A stretch of 64,000 nt of DNA from Gammaproteobacteria bacterium (lineage in GTDB: Bacteria > Pseudomonadota > Gammaproteobacteria > Pseudomonadales > Litorivicinaceae). The position numbers and the translations under genes were made by a program. The DNA is taken from NCBI GenBank assembly GCA_024640985.1, contig JAHEDY010000004.1, positions 1 to 64,000 on the forward strand. Direction: 5' to 3'. Below the pieces are notes generated by a model, which saw nothing but the letters and a program-made list of their open reading frames with translations, did no database searches and was not told the DNA's origin. Below are positions 1-239 of this stretch, piece by piece; within the stretch, counting starts at the first letter, position 1; each line of letters starts with the position of its first letter.

Positions 1-87
1 CTGTAAATCGCTAGGAATGCGTCTCACAAAGTAATACACACCACGTTTGAGATAGGTGTATTTGGGGGCATCAATTTGTGCACTCAT
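1..87 (-). CDS. Site-specific integrase, N-terminus only (runs off left edge)
   Basis: The first 29 codons of a minus-strand gene start at an ATG at 87-85 and stay open to the window edge. The peptide contains KYTYLKRGVYYFVRRIPSDL, which resembles the N-terminal DNA-binding segment (DUF6538/arm-binding type) of phage and island tyrosine integrases. The catalytic domain lies outside the window. The gene begins 76 bases beyond the 3' end of a tRNA-Phe gene and points away from it, the usual arrangement for an integrase at the att site of an element inserted in a tRNA gene. No strong ribosome binding site is visible. The family call rests on a short peptide and on context. Confidence 0.6.
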   Translation of the reverse strand, partial: MSAQIDAPKYTYLKRGVYYFVRRIPSDLQ

Positions 88-163
88 TTGTTGTACCTAC
101 AATACTGCTGGACACGGTAAGTGCAGGCATATCAACGAGTTATGTAAAGAGATGTGCTGAGAA

Positions 164-239
164 TGGTGGCCAGAGAGGGAATCGAACCCCCGACACGAGG
201 ATTTTCAATCCTCTGCTCTACCAACTGAGCTATCTGGCC
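164..239 (-). tRNA. tRNA-Phe (anticodon GAA)
   Basis: On the minus strand a 76-nt cloverleaf can be read. The 7-bp acceptor stem GGCCAGA/TCTGGCC is followed by A and an encoded CCA. There is a D arm with AGCTCAGTTGGTAGAGC, an anticodon loop TTGAAAA presenting GAA, and a T arm with GGTTCGATTCC. It serves phenylalanine codons. The 3' end faces the integrase start at 87, which suggests that this gene is an integration target. No rho-independent terminator is visible between 163 and 88, as would be expected if the original downstream DNA was displaced. Confidence 0.97.

Follow-up and report, generated by a model that had tools for sequence, protein, structure and literature searches.

The first 239 bases of the window (the whole stretch of DNA that was analysed, 64,000 bases long) very probably, at a probability of roughly 0.88, form the left attachment site (attL) of a small mobile element that was integrated at the 3' end of a tRNA-Phe gene by a DUF6538-type tyrosine recombinase and that has its far end (attR) on another contig, C9. 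Both junctions, the second end and the variability of the site were observed directly. From its structure the element would be expected to excise and to be mobile. The window covers positions 1-64000 of contig C22 of the source genome (G000; 1.63 Mb in 44 contigs, among which C9 and C12), and its base 1 is the true end of this 92,554-base contig. The source genome belongs to the genus of gamma proteobacterium HIMB30 (OM252/Litoricola-like group). The features at the contig start are the following:

164..239, minus strand: tRNA-Phe(GAA), called by ARAGORN; its 3' end, 164 to ~178 (TCCCTCTCTGGCCACCA), is the attL core
88..163, minus strand: leader of 76 bases, the conserved element end (P' arm), from a 22-copy alignment
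1..87, minus strand: opening 29 codons of an integrase gene (tyrosine recombinase of probable DUF6538 type), which the contig edge truncates
74..84, minus strand: candidate arm-type integrase site AGTGCACAAAT in codons 2-5, of which 10 bases (GTGCACAAAT) recur in C9:944-1204
24..26, no strand assigned: codon 21, at which the end module stops in 7 of the 22 relatives' copies, with other cargo beyond (alignment)

An earlier note on this DNA had described a 29-residue integrase-like start lying 76 bases beyond the tRNA and facing away from it, and the ARAGORN call agrees with this, as does the ATG-started 29-codon frame on the minus strand of positions 1-87, which is still open at base 1. The ATG (position 87) is separated from the tRNA 3' end (position 164) by 76 bases. 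A site search detected neither a terminator-like nor a sigma-70-like site in this interval, where the note had likewise seen no terminator; the sole terminator-like site detected (369-393) lies outside it. The 29 residues matched the Pfam model DUF6538 with an E-value of 1e-5 and 25.5 bits. This is below the cut-off of 27 because only 20 of the 60 model positions are represented; full-length relatives score 58-61 bits for DUF6538 and 49-54 bits for Phage_integrase. Intact frames in two genomes of the same genus share the N-terminus of the window, one of 416 amino acids in G005 (84 % identity over 25 residues) and one of 378 amino acids in G009 (52 % identity), and over 24 residues the start is 88 % identical to an intact integrase. 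The same integrase is carried by G009 and by HIMB30 (record AGIG01000028.1). The full tyrosine recombinase for which the note had proposed to search was not recovered, as the assembly of the source genome contains no integrase body; in relatives, the Phage_integrase catalytic domain with its catalytic residues is present. This assembly holds only two N-terminal stumps of DUF6538 integrases, each at the beginning of its contig, one on C22 and one beside a tRNA-Arg on C12. The C12 stump (L045 1-235) is a HIMB30-type DUF6538 integrase start cut by the contig end, with tRNA-Arg(CCT) at 311-387. Elsewhere in the window, a Phage_integrase match at 55997-56515 (minus strand) lies within a 299-aa frame that we take to be a housekeeping XerC/XerD protein.

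The far end of the element was traced to the start of contig C9. A 23-mer search of the source genome for a second full tRNA-Phe end, allowing 3 mismatches at most, matched just the tRNA itself, and attR was found with a 14-mer, sharing only ~15 bases with the tRNA end. The 14-mer occurs at three places in the genome, the tRNA included. One of these, C9:1205-1218, repeats the tRNA 3' end in direct orientation (CTCTCTGGCCACGA; 14 bases, 1 mismatch), the kind of repeat that the note had proposed to look for. A 14-base match with 1 mismatch is estimated to occur ~0.5 times by chance in 1.63 Mb, so attR was identified by its arm and by synteny. Inside the core, C9:944-1204 matches by 75-83 % the arm that precedes the cores in G019, G020, G008, G024 and others. 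Outside it, the flank C9:1202-1399 shares 86 % identity with G002:C40, in which the corresponding stretch comes after a tRNA-end copy, and the chromosome downstream of the tRNA-Phe of G001 matches C9:1358-3524. The genes of C9 lie 2.3-42 kb downstream of tRNA-Phe in all 8 relatives with long contigs (8/8), which were stitched for this test. On the basis of core copy, arm and synteny, the element thus comprises window 1-163, an unassembled middle and C9:1-1204, and C9:1205-1218 is read as attR, the other boundary of the C22 element. The claim that 164-239 contains the attL of a tRNA-integrated element running to the left is therefore upheld by attR, arm and syntenic flank on C9. As for the designation genomic island, the element edge stands; a large size is not required, in view of related elements of 3.6 kb (HIMB30) and 12.8 kb (Ruegeria).

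The site itself is variable. G002, the closest relative, is 98 % identical to the window over 164-600, and the match ends exactly at 164, the 3' end of the tRNA. Rather than the same gene, G002 has a different island beyond this point, one that it has in common with G023, and wide differences in the sequence following tRNA-Phe were seen among the loci compared. In a search of the genus, the query was matched by all 22 genomes (22/22). The conserved part, the end module, consists of the leader and the integrase start; 22 of 24 hits were aligned, two short L086 hits having been dropped. Copies of the module adjoin tRNA-Phe, tRNA-Leu and other places. Similarity continues into the integrase in 9 of the 22 copies and stops in the remaining 13, seven of them at codon 20-21. 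Four of these seven share the same cargo, a small gene, by tRNA-Phe in G008 and G020 and by tRNA-Leu in G004 and G026, so that the stops represent about four independent junctions. In two, those of G005 and G019, an alginate-lyase-like frame starts with the first 20-21 residues of the integrase. Alginate-lyase-like frames that open with these residues (L061 10268-11551; L047 13296-14603) are convergent with the integrase and overlap its 3' end.

Because the first ~21 codons occur without an integrase in relatives, the N-terminus alone proves little. It could be a decayed remnant, an end module or a truncated integrase left after a deletion with nothing mobile beside it. This reading agrees with the 13 copies that do not continue as an integrase, with the stops at codon 20-21 and with G026, in which the module copy most like that of the window has a shifted and broken frame. 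The preferred reading, for its part, is weakened by the missing integrase body and by the broken integrase copies in many relatives. However, the frame in the window extends 8 codons past the codon-21 stopping point, these codons match intact integrases, and a matching arm and attR are present on C9. A remnant is thus considered rather unlikely. For the mobile element as the preferred reading, the integrase is proposed to recombine the tRNA end with an attP composed of arm, core and leader. The leader and the first codons would then be element end, integrase 5' region and, probably, arm-type binding sites at once. In G008 and G020 an integrase-less stretch of 1.84 kb carries the module at one end and the arm with a direct core at the other, which makes it an element with two ends that holds cargo only.

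Among relatives of this integrase, the attachment site was often found twice. At 14 of 24 loci from named genomes, the tRNA 3' core plus leader recurs in inverted orientation, as a copy of 64-161 nt, at 1.2-2.5 kb downstream from where the integrase begins. Ruegeria L169 and IMG/VR L166 also have the inverted pair and L167 and L168 do not, which gives 16/28 in total. The hosts of these subfamily loci are gamma- and alphaproteobacteria and the tRNAs are of seven kinds (Phe, Leu-TAA, Leu-GAG, Ser-GGA, Arg-TCG, Arg-CCT and Gly-TCC). Loci without the pair mostly have broken or partial integrases, or a contig ending soon after. At L151, whose contig has no recognised tRNA, core, leader and at least part of the arm flank the integrase on both sides. 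A clean inverted attP within the integrase subtype of the window was seen in G019 only; the copy in G005 is partial and the extra copy in G024 is direct. No inverted leader copy was found in the assembled source genome, of which the element middle is unassembled. In a tree the repeat-bearing integrases cluster, without forming an exclusive clade: the repeat-less L146, L147, L154, L167 and L205 fall within the smallest well-supported group that takes in all 14. A palindromic core (TGGCCA) was considered as the cause of the inverted sites and rejected, as it fits Phe and Leu-TAA while the cores of Ser, Leu-GAG and Arg-CCT are not palindromic.

Single-cell genomes are prone to inverted chimeras, and several of the SAR116 and Litoricola loci stem from such genomes, so that the inverted repeats might be assembly or amplification artefacts. 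This is highly improbable. Ruegeria TM1040 is a complete record, the HIMB30 sequence is from an isolate, and the repeats at the loci examined have the same kind of core/leader boundary. Furthermore, 20 wider gammaproteobacterial DUF6538 loci showed no inverted repeat of such length, with one of 41 nt at 78 % (L217); ordinary direct repeats were present in 2 of these 20. In a control with random windows of the same 24 loci, 58 of 960 windows hit an inverted repeat, mostly overlapping the repeats in question; other inverted repeats occur in L146, L159 and L165.

The doubling is resolved in HIMB30 and Ruegeria TM1040. In HIMB30 (L141) the tRNA is followed by core, leader, the integrase (8001-9134), a convergent GST-like gene (9122-9745) and an inverted leader and core. 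A 248-nt arm follows the inverted core, and its perfect inverted copy, 1,250 nt further, ends in a direct core (11548-11563). The two repeats of this 3.6-kb element thus measure 102 nt (97 %) and 248 nt (100 %). In the megaplasmid record of TM1040 (L198) the integrase lies alone between perfect inverted repeats of 85 nt, and the direct core is found 12,753 bases from attL. A second perfect inverted repeat, of 1,148 nt (16102-17249 and 26398-27545), has a complete BRO-family gene in each copy and encloses a stretch of 9,148 nt in which type I restriction genes lie. A circle formed by either element would carry two complete inverted attP (arm, core and leader), in a two-micron-like arrangement.

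With attP doubled and inverted around its gene, the enzyme would in principle be capable of flipping this gene or either of the two unique parts of the circle. The inverted pairs may accordingly be functional, the integrase inverting its own gene, with or without cargo, beside the tRNA or flipping segments of a replicating two-micron-like circle. This idea is tentative, with the odds somewhat against it. In its favour, the attP sites of independent genomes fall on inverted repeats that are perfect or nearly so, integrases of 94 % identity at tRNA-Phe are oppositely oriented in HIMB30 and WB7, and G012 has a cargo block of ~450-490 bases whose orientation towards the tRNA is the reverse of that in G008, G020, G004 and G026. 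An archaeal tRNA integrase was found to invert DNA between inverted att sites in vitro (excerpts of PMC5495485), and a polymerase-like gene near the integrase in several elements (see below) also fits. However, of the 13 loci that have both the repeat and a tRNA that was recognised, 12 have the integrase adjoining the tRNA (p 0.003 in a two-sided binomial test). This bias makes free flipping unlikely, and free inversion at equilibrium was rejected on its account. Moreover, both orientations were seen in no single genome, and no circle was found. Inversion and replication of the double-attP elements are thus put forward as what their layout would permit.

The single-stranded genome of CTX phage folds into a double-stranded attP for integration. 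The inverted pairs might similarly fold a single strand into a double-stranded attP, the element integrating from single-stranded DNA, and in several loci the inverted sites indeed pair perfectly over 71-96 nt. The sites are more than 1 kb apart, however, with a whole gene in the loop, and a scan of a few neighbouring proteins brought up neither a relaxase nor a rolling-circle gene, which makes such folding improbable.

Leader and arm were compared for short common motifs in 8 elements. Five of them, those of HIMB30, Ruegeria and G019 and two from SAR116, have such motifs (shuffle fraction ≤0.006), for example GTAGACA in HIMB30 and TGATGTACAAA in tandem in the two SAR116 elements. The comparison failed in 3 of 8, with L158 and L150 at 8-mers and with the source genome when the leader alone was used. 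Once the first codons were included, the source genome yielded one shared 10-mer (GTGCACAAAT), which was matched in 6.5 % of shuffles and is weak alone. The shared motifs are candidate arm-type sites, as would be expected for sites bound by the N-terminal domain (on arm-binding domains in general, excerpts of PMC8138268), and DUF6538 may be this arm-binding domain. The position of candidate motifs near the start codon of the integrase would explain why element end and gene start are inseparable.

A protein family of 413-525 amino acids was found near several of these integrases (L151 3593-4966, L142 135-1712, L155 3347-4588, L052 6655-7896). It corresponds to phrog_4756, for which no function is annotated, and its motifs and folds are reminiscent of family A polymerases. 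There was no match above cut-off in Pfam. An AlphaFold2 model based on 4 sequences had a mean pLDDT of 57, and the top matches in the Protein Data Bank were mostly single-subunit RNA polymerases and Klenow-type enzymes, none with E <0.001. Phage matches reached E-values down to 2e-14, with one named DNA polymerase at 2e-12. The protein was searched for in the source genome and was not found there. Its gene near several integrases hints that circles replicate. In an extended form of the inversion idea, the element would be one of a class of integrative elements that replicate and are found in marine proteobacteria. Two complete inverted attP would split the circle, with the integrase on one segment and cargo and replication on the other. 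The integrase would insert either attP into tRNA genes and flip the segments, which would set copy number, as in the two-micron plasmid, and the gene behind the tRNA promoter, and cargo-only derivatives would be moved in trans. Such derivatives would keep the ends, including the 21 integrase codons. This proposal is speculative and is considered doubtful as a whole.

Other islands at tRNA-Phe were observed in relatives. In G022 (C5 304766-325111; L054 14766-18054 and L055 1912-15111), the 3' end of tRNA-Phe is repeated in direct tandem, mostly as copies of 46 nt, which delimit cassettes with ParDE, PrlF-YhaV, Gp49-like/HTH pairs, a NYN-domain gene and an 11-kb block, which we take to encode PQQ synthesis. 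Identical genes for a 105-aa HTH (antitoxin-like) protein lie at the ends of this block (L055 1583-1900 and 12798-13115), each adjoining a tRNA 3'-end copy. G023 has a 9-kb block (L057 6541-15543), presumably of urea/amide-type ABC transporter genes, between tRNA-Phe and a 46-nt tRNA 3'-end copy that is followed by a broken integrase start. The G022 genome was found to hold no DUF6538 integrase, and its cassette region resembles the additive islands of Methylopumilus (excerpts of PMC10872708).

In Islander-type genomic islands (PMC4383910) a tyrosine integrase adjoins attL at the tRNA gene. The window element is another member of this kind: as in these islands, the integrase lies beside the restored tRNA gene and reads away from it, and the far side is marked by a direct repeat of the tRNA 3' end. 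It differs in that the core copy is short (14-17 nt), that relatives of the element have a second, inverted attP around the integrase, and that cargo-only elements carry the first 21 codons of the integrase. Because its attP is doubled and inverted, the integrase subfamily is regarded as a new variant of tRNA islands. Tycheposons and additive flexible genomic islands are likewise tRNA-anchored, use a tyrosine recombinase, carry metabolic cargo that varies, have recurring tRNA 3' ends and live in aquatic bacteria with streamlined genomes; the likeness is one of description, and the excerpts (PMC10872708) make no mention of inverted att pairs. Shufflons and other invertible segments of tyrosine recombinases also have inverted sites from which genes start, but the sites of the subfamily are attachment sites at tRNA genes, and their orientation is strongly biased. 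The integron, with its attC-flanked cassettes and IntI integrase, offers an analogy only; the cores of the subfamily elements are tRNA ends. The yeast two-micron plasmid has two inverted repeats that divide its circle into two unique parts. There too, a tyrosine recombinase gene, that of Flp (named in excerpts of PMC5495485), lies beside one of two site-bearing long inverted repeats; the subfamily elements, however, are bacterial, are integrated at tRNA genes and have an attP with arm sites, and no circle was observed. Among the open-access matches listed, PMC5495485 was the only directly relevant paper on inverted att sites, invertible integrases or two-micron-like elements, and no description of the doubled inverted attP arrangement was found; no paper on DUF6538 was found in the open-access literature.

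Perfect inverted repeats at their ends would help to explain why assemblies of such elements are broken and why the elements are poorly sampled, and the inversion idea is testable in cultured strains. As the edge of a tRNA island the feature in the window is ordinary; an integrase between inverted copies of its own attachment site is unusual. If the pairs recombine, an integrase of tRNA sites would double as a DNA inverter, a bacterial counterpart of the Flp/two-micron plan.
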